DNA of 64,000 bases, from NCBI RefSeq assembly GCF_008727865.1, contig NZ_VTWU01000001.1, forward strand, positions 1 to 64,000, given 5' to 3'. Shown one piece after another: positions 916 to 6,827 of the stretch. Origin of the DNA: Hymenobacter busanensis. GTDB taxonomy: Bacteria; Bacteroidota; Bacteroidia; Cytophagales; Hymenobacteraceae. Both the position numbers and the translations under genes were made by a program. The notes beneath the pieces were generated by a model. It saw only the letters and a program-made list of their open reading frames with translations. It did no database searches and had not been told where the DNA came from. Each line of letters begins with the position of its first letter. Position 1 is the first letter of the stretch.

Positions 916-981
916 CCGCTGTTAACGGTTAGGCTGATACTACCTTGTCAGCTTCAACGCCACCCGCCACGCCCGAAGCTG

Positions 982-3297
982 ATGCTCCGCCCGCTCCACC
1001 TCGCCGCCCTGCTCCTCGCCGCCGCCCCCACCTTCGCCCAGAAGAACCCGCCCCAACCCAAACCCGTCGAAAACCTCACCCAGTACGCCAAGCCCATCGT
1101 GGGCACGGCCAAGATGGGGCACACGTTTCCGGGCGCCACCGTGCCCTTCGGCATGGTGCAGCTCTCGCCCGATACCGATACGCTCAGCTACGAGCAGGAC
1201 GACAAGTACAACCCCGACGTGTACAAGTACTGCGCCGGCTACCAGTACCAGGACCCCACCATCGTCGGCTTCAGCCACACCCACTTCAGCGGCACCGGCC
1301 ACTCCGACCTCGGCGACTTCCTGCTGATGCCCACCACGGGCCCGCTGCAGCTCAACCCCGGCACCGCCACGCAGCCCGAGCGCGGCTACCGCTCCCGCTT
1401 CAACCACGCCACCGAAGTGGCCGAGCCCGGCTACTACCGCGTGCAGCTCGAAGACCACGACATCCTGGCCGAGCTGACGGCCACCAACCGCGTCGGGATG
1501 CACCAGTACACCTTCCCACAGGCCACCGACCAGGCCCACCTCATCCTGGACTTGATGCACGGCATCTACAACTACCCGGACAAGAACGTGTGGACCTTCG
1601 TGCGGGTGGAAAACGACACGCTCGTCACCGGCTACCGCCAAACCAACGGTTGGGCCCGCACCCGCACGGTGTACTTCGCCATGTCGTTTTCGCGGCCCTT
1701 CACCAACTACGGCAGCCGCAACTACGCCAAAAAACAGGCCTACCGCGGCTTCTGGGGCAAGTTCGACCAGACCAAGAACTGGCCCGACCTGGCCGGCGAG
1801 CAGCTCAGGATGTACTTCAACTTCAAGACCACCACGGCCGGGGAGAAGCTCAAAGTCAAATTCGCCCTCTCGCCCGTCAGCACCGCCGGCGCCCTGCAGA
1901 ACCTGCGCGCCGAAGCCCCCGGCTGGGACTTCGACCGGGTGCGCGCCCAAGCCCGGCAGCTCTGGCAGCAGGAGCTGAGCAAGGTGGTCATCGAGTCGCC
2001 GAAGCGGGAGGACAAGGAAAACTTCTACACAGCCCTCTACCACGCCTTCCTGAGCCCGACCACCTACATGGACGCCGACGGCCAGTACCGCGGCCTCGAC
2101 CAGAACAACCACCGCGCCGAGGGCTTCACCAACTACACCACCTTCTCGCTCTGGGACACCTACCGCGCCCTGCACCCGCTGCTGAACCTGGTGCAGCCCA
2201 AGCGCAACGCCGACATGGTGCAGTCGATGCTGGCCCATTTCGAGCAGAGCGCCGAGCACATGCTGCCCGTCTGGAGCCACTACGCCAACGAAAACTGGTG
2301 CATGATCGGCTACCACTCCGTGCCCGTCATTGCCGACGCCGTGCTCAAAGGCAACGCCCCCTTCGACGCCAACCGCGCCCTCGACGCCTGCGTGACCACC
2401 GCCCGCACCGCCCGCTACGACGGCCTGGGCTACTACATGCAGCTGGGCTACGTGCCCGAGGACAAAAGCGGCTCCAGCGTCTCCAAAACCCTGGAATACG
2501 CCTACGACGACTGGTGCATCGCCCAGATGGCCCGGAAGCTCAATCGGCCCGACATCTACCAGGAGTTCAGCAAGCGCGCCCAGAACTGGCAGAACGTGTA
2601 CGATGCGCGTATCGGCTTCATGCGCCCCCGCCTGACCGACGGCTCCTTCCGCCCGAACTTCGACGTGCTGAGCACCCACAACCAGGGCTTCATCGAGGGC
2701 AACGCCTGGAACTACAGCCTCTACGTGCCCCAGGACCCGGCCGCGCTCATCGCCAAGATGGGCGGCAACCGTCGCTTCACCGAGCACCTCGACTCGCTGT
2801 TCACCATGCACCTGCCCGATAAGTTCTTCGCCGAAACCGAGGACATCACCCGCGAGGGCATCATCGGCAACTACGTGCACGGCAACGAGCCCGCCCACCA
2901 CGCCGCCTACCTCTACAACTGGACCGACCAGCCCTACAAAACCCAGGCCCGCGTGCGCATGATCCTGCCCAAGATGTACCGCCCCACCCCCGACGGCCTC
3001 GGCGGCAACGACGACTGCGGGCAGATGTCGGCCTGGTACATCTTCTCCGCCCTGGGCTTCTACCCCGTCGCCCCCGGCTCCCCGGAATACGCCCTGGGCA
3101 GCCCCGCCGTCCACGGCGCCACGCTCAGCCTGGAAAACGGCAAAACCTTCCGCATCACGGTGCGCAACCAGAGCGACAAAAACGTCTACGTGAAGGAAGC
3201 CCGCCTCAACGGGCAGAAACTCACCCGGCCCTTCCTCACGCACGAGGCTATTATGAACGGCGGGGAACTGGTGTTTACGATGGCGGCGCGGCCTTGA
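982..3297 (+). CDS. GH92 family alpha-mannosidase, secreted
   Basis: A 771-residue exo-alpha-mannosidase of glycoside hydrolase family 92, a calcium-dependent inverting family that trims mannose from N-glycans and mannans. A signal peptide covers about the first 20 residues (LLLAAAPTFAQ). Family signatures are visible: the N-terminal GTAKMGHTFPGATVPFGMVQ block, GNEPAHHAAYLYNW and GGNDDCGQMSAWYIFSALGF. Length is normal for the family. It probably acts in the periplasm or at the cell surface. The gene stands alone with no SusC/D pair beside it, so it is not part of an obvious polysaccharide utilisation locus. Confidence 0.95.
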   Translation: MLRPLHLAALLLAAAPTFAQKNPPQPKPVENLTQYAKPIVGTAKMGHTFPGATVPFGMVQLSPDTDTLSYEQDDKYNPDVYKYCAGYQYQDPTIVGFSHTHFSGTGHSDLGDFLLMPTTGPLQLNPGTATQPERGYRSRFNHATEVAEPGYYRVQLEDHDILAELTATNRVGMHQYTFPQATDQAHLILDLMHGIYNYPDKNVWTFVRVENDTLVTGYRQTNGWARTRTVYFAMSFSRPFTNYGSRNYAKKQAYRGFWGKFDQTKNWPDLAGEQLRMYFNFKTTTAGEKLKVKFALSPVSTAGALQNLRAEAPGWDFDRVRAQARQLWQQELSKVVIESPKREDKENFYTALYHAFLSPTTYMDADGQYRGLDQNNHRAEGFTNYTTFSLWDTYRALHPLLNLVQPKRNADMVQSMLAHFEQSAEHMLPVWSHYANENWCMIGYHSVPVIADAVLKGNAPFDANRALDACVTTARTARYDGLGYYMQLGYVPEDKSGSSVSKTLEYAYDDWCIAQMARKLNRPDIYQEFSKRAQNWQNVYDARIGFMRPRLTDGSFRPNFDVLSTHNQGFIEGNAWNYSLYVPQDPAALIAKMGGNRRFTEHLDSLFTMHLPDKFFAETEDITREGIIGNYVHGNEPAHHAAYLYNWTDQPYKTQARVRMILPKMYRPTPDGLGGNDDCGQMSAWYIFSALGFYPVAPGSPEYALGSPAVHGATLSLENGKTFRITVRNQSDKNVYVKEARLNGQKLTRPFLTHEAIMNGGELVFTMAARP

Positions 3298-3309
3298 GAA
3301 GAGTGACAG

Positions 3310-3323
3310 TCATGTAAGTATAC
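3310..3323. repeat. Left copy of 14-bp direct repeat flanking an A/T-rich cassette
   Basis: The sequence TCATGTAAGTATAC lies 13 bp after the GH92 stop codon, exactly where base composition drops. A copy differing by one base (TCATGTAAGCATAC) sits at 4512-4525, on the other side of the two-gene cassette, where composition rises again. This resembles an attachment-site or target-site duplication. Confidence 0.6.
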
Positions 3324-3332
3324 AAGTCGTCT

Positions 3333-3683
3333 TTAGGTGTATTTGCCGAGCGGTCTATTCTCTGCATAATCCCAAGCTACTTCTCCTGACTCTCTTGTAA
3401 AGCCTCTCGCCCCTAACTCAACAAGTAAGCGGCTTAGCTCGTCATCGTTTGTACCTGTTACTAATTTTAACGTCTTGAATGATCTGCCTTTGCCAGGTGC
3501 AGCATTGTCTAGCATTTCCCTTATTAATCTTTTTCTAGGACCCCATAACCTCTCTTCTTCCCTTTTTTCTCTTCTTCTTTCTAATCTTAAGGGCGCCCAA
3601 TATGATGTTATATAGGAAGTGGCAGTACCTATGGCTGCTCCCAATGCGGTTCCTATGAGTCCAGCAATGTATTCGTCAGACAT
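3333..3683 (-). CDS. Small membrane protein with winged-helix-like C-terminal domain
   Basis: A 116-residue protein with one N-terminal glycine/alanine-rich transmembrane segment (about residues 5-27), a highly charged linker, then a compact domain beginning at LWGPRKRLIREML. That domain has the pattern (WGPRK..L..ML, LLxELGARG) of small domains found in membrane proteins of mobile or accessory DNA, and may be a winged helix; this is from memory of the family. It starts 4 bp after the upstream HNH gene ends, so the two are almost certainly co-transcribed. Both are A/T-rich compared with their neighbours. Function unknown. Confidence 0.75.
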   Translation of the reverse strand: MSDEYIAGLIGTALGAAIGTATSYITSYWAPLRLERRREKREEERLWGPRKRLIREMLDNAAPGKGRSFKTLKLVTGTNDDELSRLLVELGARGFTRESGEVAWDYAENRPLGKYT

Positions 3684-3687
3684 CGTA

Positions 3688-4377
3688 TTAGGGGTTATAG
3701 ATCTTTACTTGCTTGTTGTGATAATCAATGTATGCCTGGTCTATTGCATGCTTATTGAGTTTAAGGTGTTCTATAGATATTGGCATAGTAAAAAAGTCAA
3801 GCCTTGTGTGATGATCAGGACATACGCACAATAAATTACTTTTTACGTCTGGTCCGAAATGTGGTGAACCCAATCCTTTTATATGGTGGACTTCGCTATA
3901 ATATTTAGGTCCCTTTGTGCGTATCTTAAGTTGGGTACCGCAAATTTGGCAGGTATTTCTATATAGTTTTTTTATTTCTTCAACAAGTTTTTTGTTGCGA
4001 ATGTATATTTCAATTTCGCGTTTTTGTTTTAATGTTTCTTCGTTTGTTGGTTCATGCCTCTCTTTTATAGGCGTATTAATGGTGCTAATCAAATTGTGTT
4101 TTTTTAGAATAGTTTTCTGCGCGTCACTGAATGACGTATACGTGGGAAGACTAGAAATACCATTTGGTCTTATATGAACTTGATTTTCGGCAGGTCCAAA
4201 ATCTATTCCAGGATAATTTAGGTAATCTGCTCTTGTTTCAAAAACTATATATCCATTCGGGTCAATAAGAATGCCTGGGAAATCATTTAGTTCATGATAC
4301 CACGTGCCTTCTTTGTAATAGAGTGCATGTATAGCTCCTAGTTGTAGAAGCTCATTTATAGGTTCGCCTTTTAACAT
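3688..4377 (-). CDS. HNH endonuclease family protein
   Basis: A 229-residue protein. The C-terminal half is an HNH (beta-beta-alpha metal) nuclease: CxxC at C143/C146, the paired histidines H164-H165 in SEVHHIKGLG, N181, and CVCPDHH at 184-190. The N-terminal 100 residues (ALYYKEGTWYHELNDFPG, ILIDPNGYIVFETRADYL) form a separate domain that I do not recognise; it could read a DNA modification or target, as in McrA-like enzymes. It is first in a two-gene minus-strand operon inside an A/T-rich island. It may act in restriction or defence, or as a homing-type nuclease; the sequence does not decide. Confidence 0.85.
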   Translation of the reverse strand: MLKGEPINELLQLGAIHALYYKEGTWYHELNDFPGILIDPNGYIVFETRADYLNYPGIDFGPAENQVHIRPNGISSLPTYTSFSDAQKTILKKHNLISTINTPIKERHEPTNEETLKQKREIEIYIRNKKLVEEIKKLYRNTCQICGTQLKIRTKGPKYYSEVHHIKGLGSPHFGPDVKSNLLCVCPDHHTRLDFFTMPISIEHLKLNKHAIDQAYIDYHNKQVKIYNP

Positions 4378-4440
4378 GTTGTTAAAGAGTTGAAAGTGTT
4401 TTGCTTTTGAGTTGATGATTATGGAGTATGTTCAAAAGTG

Positions 4441-4459
4441 TTTTTAATTAAATTAAAAA
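4441..4459. promoter_or_regulatory. A/T-rich perfect dyad upstream of the HNH gene
   Basis: TTTTTAATT and AATTAAAAA form 9-bp arms around a single central base, 64 bp upstream of the HNH start codon. It could be an operator or promoter element of the cassette. An RNA hairpin of only A and T pairs would be weak, so a terminator is less likely. Confidence 0.4.
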
Positions 4460-4511
4460 GCAATAGTGGTAGAATGTAAATCGTGAACTTATAATTCTAA
4501 TCTATTTGAAA

Positions 4512-4525
4512 TCATGTAAGCATAC
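4512..4525. repeat. Right copy of 14-bp direct repeat flanking the cassette
   Basis: TCATGTAAGCATAC matches the copy at 3310-3323 in 13 of 14 positions and in the same orientation. The A/T-rich DNA ends within about 10 bp of it. Confidence 0.6.
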
Positions 4526-4543
4526 CTGGCACCGTGCCAAAAC

Positions 4544-4571
4544 CCGCCCGCTCCCAACCGGGAGCGGGCGG
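4544..4571 (-). terminator. Rho-independent terminator of the helical protein gene
   Basis: Perfect 12-bp arms (4544-4555 and 4560-4571) with an AACC loop. Read on the minus strand the stem is followed by TTTTGG. It lies 25 bp past the stop codon at 4596. Confidence 0.75.
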
Positions 4572-4595
4572 CTTCATTTCCAACCCCGCCGGGCC

Positions 4596-5279
4596 TTACC
4601 CCGCCGCCGGTTTCTGCTTGCCACCCCCGCCGCCGGACTCAATAATCTTGCGGGCCTGGGTGTAGCCGTCGAACAGCGGGCGGTTGAGCAGCTTGAAGGC
4701 TTTCATGTCCTCGTCGAGGGTGCGCAGCTCGTCCATCAGGTCGGCCAGCAGGTCCTCCAGGGCCGCGCCCGACACGGCCCGCTCGTTGATGGTTTTGCGC
4801 ACGGCCGGCTGGGCGGTGCGGAAGGTAGCCAGGGCATCGGTCAGCGGCTGCAGGGCCTTAGCCGTAAGGCCCTGCTTGGCCAGCTCGGGCGCCACGTCGG
4901 GGCGGGCGGCGCTGGCCATGATGGCGCCCACCACCGAGGCAAACGGCACGGGGCGCAGCTTGCGCAGCTGCTTGCCGCCCAGCGTCACGGCCGCTTGCAG
5001 GTCGGCGTCGCCGAGGCGCACCGCCACCCGGCCGAGGGGGCCGAGCAAGGCGGGCAGCAGGTCGTAGAGGGTTTGCTGCGCGGCCTGGGCGGCGGCCGTC
5101 AGGTCCTCGGTGCGGCGGGCGGTGCCGCTGCGGGCCTGGGCCACCTGCGCGTAGAGGGTTTGCACGTCGGCGGCCTGCTGCGCGGCTACCTCGCTGGCGG
5201 CCAGTTCGGCAGTGTGTCCGGCCAAGTAATCAGCCACCCGCCCACACATGGCGAGCTGGTCTTCTTTGTATTTCTCCAT
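4596..5279 (-). CDS. Conserved-looking alpha-helical protein of unknown function
   Basis: A 227-residue protein, starting at MEKYKEDQLAM; a longer frame reaches 5366 but its first 29 residues look non-coding. It has no signal peptide or membrane segment, is predicted mostly helical, and is rich in Ala, Leu and Gln. The tail is glycine-rich (GGGGGKQKPAAG). Long helices between residues 15 and 210 would suit a coiled-coil bundle. I do not recognise the family. It has its own terminator and a palindrome upstream, so it appears monocistronic. Confidence 0.75.
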   Translation of the reverse strand: MEKYKEDQLAMCGRVADYLAGHTAELAASEVAAQQAADVQTLYAQVAQARSGTARRTEDLTAAAQAAQQTLYDLLPALLGPLGRVAVRLGDADLQAAVTLGGKQLRKLRPVPFASVVGAIMASAARPDVAPELAKQGLTAKALQPLTDALATFRTAQPAVRKTINERAVSGAALEDLLADLMDELRTLDEDMKAFKLLNRPLFDGYTQARKIIESGGGGGKQKPAAG

Positions 5280-5307
5280 CGAACAACTAGTTGGTAGTGA
5301 TATAAAG

Positions 5308-5323
5308 CCGCTCCCGGGAGCGG
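5308..5323. promoter_or_regulatory. 16-bp perfect palindrome upstream of the helical protein gene
   Basis: CCGCTCCCGGGAGCGG is self-complementary and sits 29 bp upstream of the start codon at 5279. With no loop it is better read as a DNA-level operator than as a terminator. Confidence 0.35.
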
Positions 5324-5403
5324 CGCAAGTATTTCTTGCGGCCGCCAAGATAACTGGAACCGCCAAGCAAACAACCCCCTACAGTCCAGCCACCTTTCCC
5401 CGT

Positions 5404-5676
5404 CCCGGCCCCGGCACAACTGCCCCCGGCACCGGTTCCACCCGTCCCGGAATCGAGCCAACCACCCCCGGCCCCGCTGCAACCCTTCCCGGCATCGGTC
5501 CAACGGCTCCCGGTATCGATGGAACCATCCCCGGCCCCCATGCAACGCCCCACGACCTCGACGTAACTACTGCCGGCATCGATTCAACGGCTCCCGACAT
5601 CGATTCCACCACTCCGGGCAGTGGCCCAACGGCGTCCGGCATCGGCTAAACCACTCCCGGCATCAAGCCCACGGCC
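5404..5676. repeat. Thirteen-unit 21-bp tandem repeat (minisatellite)
   Basis: Thirteen consecutive, diverged 21-bp units with approximate consensus CCCGGCATCGATCCAACGGC plus T. In one plus-strand frame each unit reads PGxxxTx; the Thr codon is kept in all 13 units while using three different third bases, which looks like coding constraint. A TAA in unit 12 (5647-5649) interrupts that frame, and no convincing start codon precedes it. The other frames also give heptad repeats. It may be a decayed repeat-protein gene or a non-coding minisatellite. It fills most of the 5280-5835 gap between genes. Confidence 0.85.
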
Positions 5677-5778
5677 GCCGGCCGCGCCGCCGACGCGTAT
5701 GGCCCGGGGCGGGCGTACCCGGCTCCGTTGGCGTCTACAAGGCGTTTGAATGAGCAGCCGCTAAGTCCAGGTCACGCC

Positions 5779-5816
5779 AAAACGCCCTGCCGAGCAACCG
5801 CTCGACAGGGCGTTTT
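5779..5816 (-). terminator. Terminator downstream of the MBL-fold gene
   Basis: Eleven-base arms AAAACGCCCTG (5779-5789) and CAGGGCGTTTT (5806-5816), extended inside by CGAG/CTCG after one mismatch. It lies 20 bp past the stop at 5836 and ends in a T run on the minus strand. Confidence 0.85.
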
Positions 5817-5835
5817 CCTTGGGGTGTCGCCGAAG

Positions 5836-6615
5836 CTACTTGGCGCCGGCGTACCAGTTGCGCAGCCGCACGTCAATCTTCTTATTGGCCGCGTTGACGG
5901 TTTTCTGGAAGGCCGCCACGTCGCTCAGTCCGTTCTGGCCGCGGTAGTGGTAGGGGTACACGATGCCGGGCTTGAAGGCCAGTACACCCTGCGCCGCCTG
6001 CTGCACGTCCATGGTGTAGGGCAGGTTCATGCACACAAACGCCACGTCGATGTTCTTCAGGGCGCGCATTTCGGGCGTGTCCTCGGTGTCGCCGGAGAAG
6101 TACACGTTTTTGCCGCCCAGGCCCAGCACGTAGCCGTTGCCCCGGCCTTTGGTGTGCATGGCGTCGGGCGCTTCGGGCAGGTTGTACATCGGGATGGCCG
6201 CGATGCTCATCCCTAGCGTGTCGAGCTTCTGGCCGTTGCGCAGCACGCGCACCTGCTTTTTGTACTCGGCCGGCAGCTTCTCGGCCACGGCGGGCGGCAC
6301 CACCATCAGGGCCTTGCCCACCGACAGGCCGGCCAGCGTCTTCGGGTCCAGATGGTCGGGGTGGATGTCGGTGATGAGCACCACGTCGGGCGCGGACAGG
6401 CCGGCGTAGGCTTCGGAGCCGCCGTAGGGGTCCACGTAGATGGTCTTGCGGTTCCAGCTCAGCACCACGCTGCCGTGCGTGATGGGCTGCACCGTGAGCG
6501 GGCCGGTTTTGGTCGCAATCTGGTCGGGGGCTACGCGCGGGGCCGCCGGCGTCTGGGCGAGTACGGGCGTGGTCAGGGCCGTTAGCGCGGCCAGCAGCAG
6601 GGGGGTAAGCTTCAT
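5836..6615 (-). CDS. Secreted metallo-beta-lactamase-fold hydrolase (UlaG-like)
   Basis: A 259-residue protein with a signal peptide (about residues 1-20, ending PVLAQ), so it is periplasmic. The metallo-beta-lactamase fold of the UlaG/L-ascorbate-lactonase-like branch is shown by THGSVVLSW, DPYGG, DIHPDHLD, YFSGDTEDTPEM and YPYHYRGQNG. The metal motif HxHxDH here reads DIHPDH, with Asp in place of the first His, a variant I believe occurs in this branch. Substrate is unknown. It is monocistronic, with its own terminator. Confidence 0.88.
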   Translation of the reverse strand: MKLTPLLLAALTALTTPVLAQTPAAPRVAPDQIATKTGPLTVQPITHGSVVLSWNRKTIYVDPYGGSEAYAGLSAPDVVLITDIHPDHLDPKTLAGLSVGKALMVVPPAVAEKLPAEYKKQVRVLRNGQKLDTLGMSIAAIPMYNLPEAPDAMHTKGRGNGYVLGLGGKNVYFSGDTEDTPEMRALKNIDVAFVCMNLPYTMDVQQAAQGVLAFKPGIVYPYHYRGQNGLSDVAAFQKTVNAANKKIDVRLRNWYAGAK

Positions 6616-6827
6616 CGGGTTTGGTTAGTGGTGAGGTAGACGGGAAACGTGGACAGCGGGTAGCACGGTGATTTCCGCGCTGCCCCGAGCCTGACCATAA
6701 CCCGGTGGGCCGTGACAAGTTTTGCGCTTGAGTGGCGTCGGCGCGCGAGCATCCAGAAAAGGCGAGTGGTTGGGCAGTATTCCTTCGTTGGCGCAGGCTC
6801 AAGGGCGGCGCAATGAATGCTTGGATG

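Follow-up and report, generated by a model that had tools for sequence, protein, structure and literature searches.

A small A/T-rich unit in a variable chromosomal slot of Hymenobacter encodes a candidate modification-dependent HNH endonuclease with a rare N-terminal domain

Several described systems resemble, in part, the locus reported here. TagI-type SRA-HNH enzymes sense DNA with an N-terminal domain and cut it with a C-terminal HNH domain (PMC6212794), and the TagI residues H229, D241, N245, H254 and D258 have been described as catalytic, structural or metal-binding. The 229-aa HNH protein of our locus shares with them the aligned HNH residues H, D, N, H and D, the cysteines and the order of a putative sensing and a putative cutting part. 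Unlike them, it contains no SRA domain that could be found, and its N-terminal domain (N-domain) is unlike any family searched. With the wH-HNH N6-methyladenine-dependent endonucleases (PMC11037411) it shares its size (224-283 aa in that class), the HNH layout and the lack of a methyltransferase neighbour, but it has no winged helix. Because the defining reader domain of each class was looked for in the protein and not found, we do not assign it to the SRA-HNH or the wH-HNH enzymes. PD-Lambda-5 (PMC9519451; PADLOC models) is related through the N-domain: two operons of this type, in Mesorhizobium and Devosia, encode it in an overlapping third gene. The unit itself was rejected as a PD-Lambda-5 member since no A (ParB-like) or B (D12 methyltransferase) gene lies beside it. 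The chromosomal site recalls the defence hotspots of E. coli, P. aeruginosa and P2/P4 phages (PMC10121019, PMC10250203, PMC9122126), in which conserved flanks enclose exchanged cargo that includes defence genes. In contrast to those hotspots, the cargo here is 0.7-2.3 kb of A/T-rich DNA that follows the hairpin of genes of one family, at several sites on the chromosome, and our unit has no recombinase. In the open-licence literature searched, neither the N-domain nor the slot was found described; subscription literature lay outside that scope. From sequence comparison, we consider it somewhat probable that 3688-4377 encodes a small type IV-like (modification-dependent) restriction endonuclease, an HNH cutter joined to a specificity or sensing module, in a turnover slot.

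The window, by which we mean the whole 64-kb stretch of DNA analysed, has the following features around the unit.

982-3297, + strand: GH92 glycosidase, the left flank common to the nearest relative (Pfam Glyco_hydro_92, 1e-184; 94% DNA identity to genome G001 over 940-3297)
3298-4539, no strand: variable segment; G001 has no DNA match between the same flanks
3310-3323, + strand: direct repeat copy 1, TCATGTAAGTATAC (repeat search, genome pattern count, shuffles)
3333-3683, - strand: 116-aa partner protein, with a marginal hydrophobic N-terminal stretch and no significant family match
3688-4377, - strand: predicted 229-aa HNH endonuclease (sequence-profile matches)
3790-3951, - strand: predicted HNH_2 nuclease core, aa 143-196 (catalytic residues aligned with TagI)
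4099-4377, - strand: N-terminal domain, aa 1-93, undescribed in the libraries searched and common to 10 other loci
4512-4525, + strand: direct repeat copy 2, TCATGTAAGCATAC (repeat search, genome pattern count, shuffles)
4544-4571, no strand: 12-bp G+C-rich hairpin 3' of the helical-protein gene, taken as the terminator of that gene
4596-5279, - strand: 227-aa helical-protein gene (helical by eye only); the variable slot is its 3' side

The preliminary description of two closely coupled low-GC genes between GC-rich neighbours was borne out. Both ORFs lie on the - strand with a gap of 4 bases. The G+C content is 0.37 over 3298-4533 as compared to 0.62 across the window, and the third-position values of the two ORFs are 0.28 and 0.35 as compared to 0.94 in the GH92 gene and 0.89 in the helical-protein gene. 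The two A/T-rich genes are probably foreign. A second low-GC gene (64-915) stands at the contig end, left of GH92; its MORN_2 match is below the cut-off, and it has no DNA match in the G001 stretch. A degenerate repeat array (5399-5615; 21-base period, also read as 42 and 63) lies a short way upstream of the helical-protein gene and is in part common to G001.

G001 is the nearest relative with both flanks. Besides GH92, it shares the hairpin, the helical-protein gene and the next gene (91% identity over 4540-6726). Between these flanks it has a 137-aa ORF, lipoprotein-like by eye and with no Pfam match better than E 0.1, together with a G+C-rich repeat. The two genes as such are absent from the seven other genomes of the genus; in three of these the HNH half alone finds matches, and the partner is found in none. 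The presence of both genes at this place in all close relatives, which had been named, together with a lack of empty sites, as the observation that would speak against an inserted unit, was not seen (0/7 genus genomes, and G001 differs). No empty site with a single 14-mer was found, G001 being the only relative seen with both flanks. Thus the pattern is one of presence and absence with replacement, not of an empty site, and it does not tell gain from loss. The earlier proposal of a recombined or site-specifically inserted unit, with its suggested comparison of the GH92/helical-gene junction among relatives, is supported as to exchange, as another gene occupies the site in G001 and the unit is absent from the genus genomes; mobility through the 14-mer is unproven, given that no empty site was found and given the result with other cargo units described below.

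The 14-base direct repeat itself is real. Its copies at 3310-3323 and 4512-4525 are identical at 13 of 14 positions, and the pattern TCATGTAAGYATAC occurs exactly twice in the 4.9-Mb genome (the same pattern written backwards, as a control, gave 0 occurrences). A 13/14 repeat anywhere inside a segment of this kind is ordinary, with a mean of 0.7 pairs in 30 shuffles. With a copy at most 50 bases from each segment edge, it appeared in 2 of 4000 first-order Markov shuffles, and with copies at most 100 bases from both edges in 13 of 4000; the length, mismatch and edge limits of this test were picked after the fact. Placement of the copies at the edges by chance is unlikely. However, the repeats are not the exact edges of the unit, because identity to G001 stops at 3297 (the GH92 stop) and resumes at 4540 (the hairpin), 12 and 14 bases outside the repeats. 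A short palindrome is found at this slot junction (4527-4539).

Movement of the unit as a cassette, through site-specific recombination at the two repeats, or duplication of a 14-base target upon insertion, would account for the rarity of the pattern in the genome and for its position near both edges. We regard either event as decidedly improbable, since the unit contains no recombinase gene by ORF list and Pfam (as had been noted from the start), no empty site was seen, the G001 breaks fall outside the repeats, and a comparable repeat is present in none of the nine other cargo units in the zones searched. The small HNH protein, its presence/absence pattern and PHROGs matches that include phage HNH families could also suggest a homing-endonuclease cassette spread by its own cleavage. 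That reading, which is very hard to credit, was rejected because the unit is intergenic between two intact genes and interrupts nothing; no intron, intein or interrupted target gene was seen, and the nearest solved relatives are restriction enzymes. Of the earlier suggestion of a small defence module or homing cassette, the defence-type part is the one supported, as the HNH half resembles modification-dependent enzymes.

The HNH half was compared with known enzymes. Residues 119-201 match TagI (6GHS) with E 4.1e-14, and residues 114-196 match EcoKMcrA (6GHC) with E 2.7e-4. The protein scores above the cut-off of Pfam HNH_2, matches a PADLOC type IV enzyme model (E 5.9e-5) and reaches E 2.3e-7 and 30 bits against NCBIfam PT-DNA_restrict, for which the cut-off is 180. 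H165, D177, N181, H190 and D194 align with the five TagI residues named above, and C143, C146 and C186 align with the TagI zinc-site cysteines. The HNH half is thus predicted to be a canonical nuclease with intact catalytic residues that resembles modification-dependent restriction enzymes, and by analogy the whole protein probably works like a modification-dependent HNH enzyme. A full-length structure model was poor in the HNH half. Zorya ZorE2 was considered and rejected, as the match (E 1.2e-4 over aa 81-195) covers mainly the HNH half and none of the five window proteins searched has a ZorA/B-like Pfam match. There is no methyltransferase gene beside the HNH gene; its neighbours, the 116-aa ORF, GH92 and the helical-protein gene, match no methyltransferase model.

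Full-length relatives of the HNH protein were not found in plasmids, phages, family genomes or viral_contigs. In the family, 75 of 204 genomes match at E<=0.001, and among the matches listed all start at residue 76 or later, except the window's own and that of genome G113. L002 and L038, the family proteins that match the HNH half best, combine an HNH domain of this kind with a different N-terminus, winged-helix-like by eye, and by eye both proteins are of the wH-HNH kind. L038 adjoins an MmeI-type gene, which resembles the wH-HNH/type IIG pairing in PMC11037411. The plasmid scan gave 11 records, all with less than 60% identity and none over more than 80% of the length; tblastn against phages gave no match.

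The N-terminal 93 residues are a separate, rare domain. The earlier remark that this part is unrecognised was upheld, with no significant match in Pfam (10 of 11 carriers searched) or NCBIfam (8 of 11) and no PDB fold. The recognised modification-reading domains (SRA, SBD, NEco, wH) gave no library or fold match to it. The domain had been suggested for modelling; AlphaFold2 with 11 sequences gave a mean pLDDT of 90.8 and a pTM of 0.83, and a Foldseek search with this model had its best matches at E 1.3 in PDB and 0.29 in BFVD, neither of which reaches E<=0.001. The RAMA domain (PF18755) was also rejected, with no match up to E 10 in nine N-domain proteins and an hhalign probability of 0.2 percent against a 3-sequence RAMA alignment. 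Thirteen positions (N8, A15, H17, Y20, G24, T25, F33, P34, L37, D39, G42, N65 and Y80) are invariant in all 11 aligned N-domains.

Two short peptide patterns were run against 84,980 species genomes and gave 38 stretches, of which 10 were confirmed as other loci, in several phyla; this count is a lower bound because only two patterns were used. Within the family, the domain occurs in one other genome, G113 (Hymenobacter sp.; locus L039, whose contig is, by length and sequence, that of L070). In an even sample of the phylum, a single-sequence query found it in 1 of 395 genomes, the window's own. Profile searches gave 2 of 398 genomes in the phylum of the Pseudoxanthomonas locus L071 and 2 of 397 in the order of the Mesorhizobium locus L072, each time the centre genome and one match taken as chance. 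These two weak matches were rejected as carriers: L088, a 509-aa protein that is DUF1254-like by eye, and L133, 36 residues within a 407-aa ORF. Scans of viral_contigs with the partner, the N-domain and the HNH domain gave nothing useful, with two loci matching a SeqA_N-like segment only.

Four of the 10 other loci (L070, L072, L073 and L077) have defence-type or methyltransferase settings. In L070 (310-2201) the domain is fused to GmrSD_N (5e-31; PADLOC NsnA 3e-66, PD-T4-2_A 1e-52), and the fusion gene is overlapped by a HEPN_RiboL-PSP gene without PADLOC match; the two may form a nuclease pair. In Mesorhizobium (L072, 4669-7237) and Devosia (L073, 201-2937) the N-domain gene comes third, after a PD-Lambda-5-type pair, and overlaps the D12-type methyltransferase gene of that pair at the end of the latter, a call based on scans of the A gene at both loci and of B at L072, the L073 B gene being judged by its likeness to that of L072. 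A transposase-like ORF (by eye) converges behind this three-gene variant at both loci. In L077 (4516-7246) HATPase_c_3, Methyltransf_35 and N-domain genes follow in a row. At the other six loci (L071, L074, L075, L076, L078 and L079) the neighbour genes appear ordinary by eye, the 140-aa ORF of L078 alone having been scanned. The N-domain of L074, L075, L076 and L079 stands behind a SeqA_N-like segment, which is weak and below cut-offs (Pfam E 5e-4 for L074 and 0.056 for L075, none for L076 and L079; NCBIfam SepA-family 1e-5 to 2e-4 for L074-L076; L079 by eye only). L071 and L078 have the N-domain alone, in L078 after the 140-aa ORF, which has no match.

SeqA binds hemimethylated GATC and is both a multimeriser and a methyl-DNA binder. 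N6-methyladenine is our first guess for the target of the N-domain, because PD-Lambda-5 B matches D12 (N6-adenine) methyltransferases and because of this SeqA activity. The domain (85-95 residues) could be a new interchangeable reader of DNA modification, most likely of N6-methyladenine, swapped into an HNH restriction enzyme, a GmrSD-type system and PD-Lambda-5-type systems, and joined to SeqA_N-like multimerising segments as an independent counterpart of SeqA; we put this forward tentatively, as a proposal that is on the whole unlikely. Alternatively, the N-domain may bind a protein partner or a fixed DNA sequence without reading any modification, and the HNH domain would be an effector triggered in another way. 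The N-domain is acidic in both fusion proteins (charge -4 in the window, -7 in L070) and basic (+2 to +8) in eight of the nine remaining carriers (L079, -1), so the case for direct DNA binding by the window protein is weakened and this alternative gains. The domain also exists as a free protein with about 90 residues, whose gene in two cases directly follows that of a methyltransferase, where it could be a subunit, and no reader fold was found in PDB or BFVD. Against this, the SeqA_N-like fusions would mirror the layout of SeqA. TagI, the nearest solved relative, and the wH-HNH class moreover have DNA-reading N-termini (PMC6212794, PMC11037411). We consider partner or fixed-sequence binding somewhat unlikely, if worth keeping in mind.

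The 116-aa partner is probably co-transcribed with the HNH gene. Regulation and membrane tethering are conceivable roles; the hydrophobic stretch is marginal, and the searches gave no relatives of the protein. It had been described as a membrane helix with a winged-helix-like domain; the helix is marginal (best 19-residue Kyte-Doolittle mean 1.28), and the winged helix was not confirmed, as no Pfam, PADLOC or NCBIfam model matched. Four weak PHROGs matches (E 0.09-0.42) include a holin and no winged helix. The partner has no match in the 203 other family genomes, none in plasmids at E<=0.01 and none in the viral_contigs scan; further matches are weak (E 6-8), one of them antisense to a chaperone-like ORF (by eye). 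With no match to the partner and no full-length HNH relative in these searches, the two genes are at most a putative module, and co-occurrence of the two proteins has no comparison set since the partner lacks relatives.

The 3' side of the helical-protein gene was then compared within the family. This gene has matches in 42 of 204 genomes. The analysis used 21 of 30 loci (L008-L037) with a full or nearly full-length gene, read up to 1.5 kb past it; the loci L029-L037, which are partial or distant, were excluded along with every match that had no locus, and the window's own locus, which prompted the search, is among the 21. A G+C-rich hairpin follows the gene in 18 of 21 loci by a simple finder and in L010, L019 and L022 by eye. 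That of the window folds well (z -2.85) and presumably ends the transcript of the helical-protein gene; in a T-run scan it was terminator-like on the + strand only (1 found, 1.7 expected). In 11 of 21 loci (10 of 20 without the window), the stretch 100-600 bases past the gene has a G+C content below 0.45, as compared to 0 of 21 on the upstream side, 59 of 3900 overlapping windows from 20 arbitrary 20-kb stretches of 18 of the 21 genomes, and 1 of 119 control hairpins. Binomial values overstate the certainty of this difference because the control windows overlap. Besides the window, nine units have an A/T-rich block of about 0.7-2.3 kb; L015 was omitted from the cargo-length and repeat tests on account of its short contig.

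Upstream DNA is common over at least 700 bases in groups such as L008/L009, L013/L018, L023/L025 and L016 with L017, L019, L021, L026 and L027. Beyond the hairpin, members of these groups have no match reaching 150 bases, except in L016/L027, both with a transposase-like gene (by eye), and on the far side of L008/L009 and L023/L025. L024/L028 have the downstream gene in common too. In four aligned locus pairs, identity ends about 1-22 bases past the hairpin. Because A/T-rich and mostly differing DNA follows the hairpin despite common upstream DNA, the unit is placed in a recurrent turnover slot. By eye, a palindromic repeat some 30 bases long, of the GGCACGAGTTACG...CTCGCGCC type, recurs at slot junctions in L009, L019 and L023, either beyond the hairpin or at the far end. 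The 3' end of the helical-protein gene is duplicated in 2 of 17 extended loci. These partial copies with hairpin, 78-80% identical, lie 3.5 kb (L119, 4190-4297 of the reverse-complemented locus) and 8.3 kb (L116, 9055-9186) downstream of full copies, and that of L119 is followed by a gene with GC 0.40. They could be remains of older slots or the end of a mobile unit; the duplicated end is at best a possible attachment site. None of the nine other cargo units has a repeat like the 14-mer pair beyond the shuffle range, and repeat-driven mobility was rejected as the general mechanism of the slot. The search for repeats covered the bases 40-140 past the gene and 150 bases on each side of the GC-estimated cargo end, so other cargo repeats could be missed.

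The cargo includes AAA_13/PDC-S06 (L011), DUF4276 with AAA/HEC-01 (L017), Mrr_cat with Peptidase_M78 (L021), PIN_8 without PADLOC match (L010), and HTH_3 and a D12 methyltransferase with an unrecognised ORF between them (L018); L012, L013, L015, L022, L023 and L025 gave weak or no matches. PADLOC matched the cargo of three of the eight loci scanned among the 20 others (L010, L011, L012, L013, L015, L017, L018 and L021), a count to be read beside slot controls that cover A/T-richness only, not defence frequency. The slot is thus a turnover site with A/T-rich cargo, some of it candidate defence genes, that differs from genome to genome in the family. Neutral, short-lived A/T-rich passengers at a safe intergenic site, without present function, would explain why much other cargo lacks a defence-type match (PADLOC in 3/8 loci; weak or no Pfam matches in six) and why the partner has no relatives. 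Intact, closely coupled ORFs and the conserved HNH catalytic residues make this quite unlikely for the unit described here.

The preferred reading, a small modification-dependent restriction endonuclease, draws on the HNH resemblance with intact catalytic residues, the fact that other proteins also contain the N-domain, and the difference between close relatives in whether they have the unit. The C-terminal HNH domain would cut DNA, and the N-domain would be the specificity or sensing module, in the position that an SRA or a different N-terminal domain has in relatives. If the protein acts as TagI, EcoKMcrA and the wH-HNH enzymes do, its N-domain would recognise some trait of foreign DNA, close to which the HNH domain would cut. 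The trait may be a DNA modification, and N6-methyladenine would agree with both the PD-Lambda-5-type methyltransferases and the SeqA_N-like fusions. The enzyme would then destroy incoming modified DNA, and the unit would have been gained here rather than lost elsewhere.

The repertoire of reader domains for modified adenine in DNA has been called surprisingly limited (PMC11037411). The N-domain is small and accompanies several defence systems in distant phyla, which makes it a compact candidate reader of modified adenine. For the family, the slot is a place to seek small unclassified defence genes, as its unknown cargo lies at the same address as known candidates.
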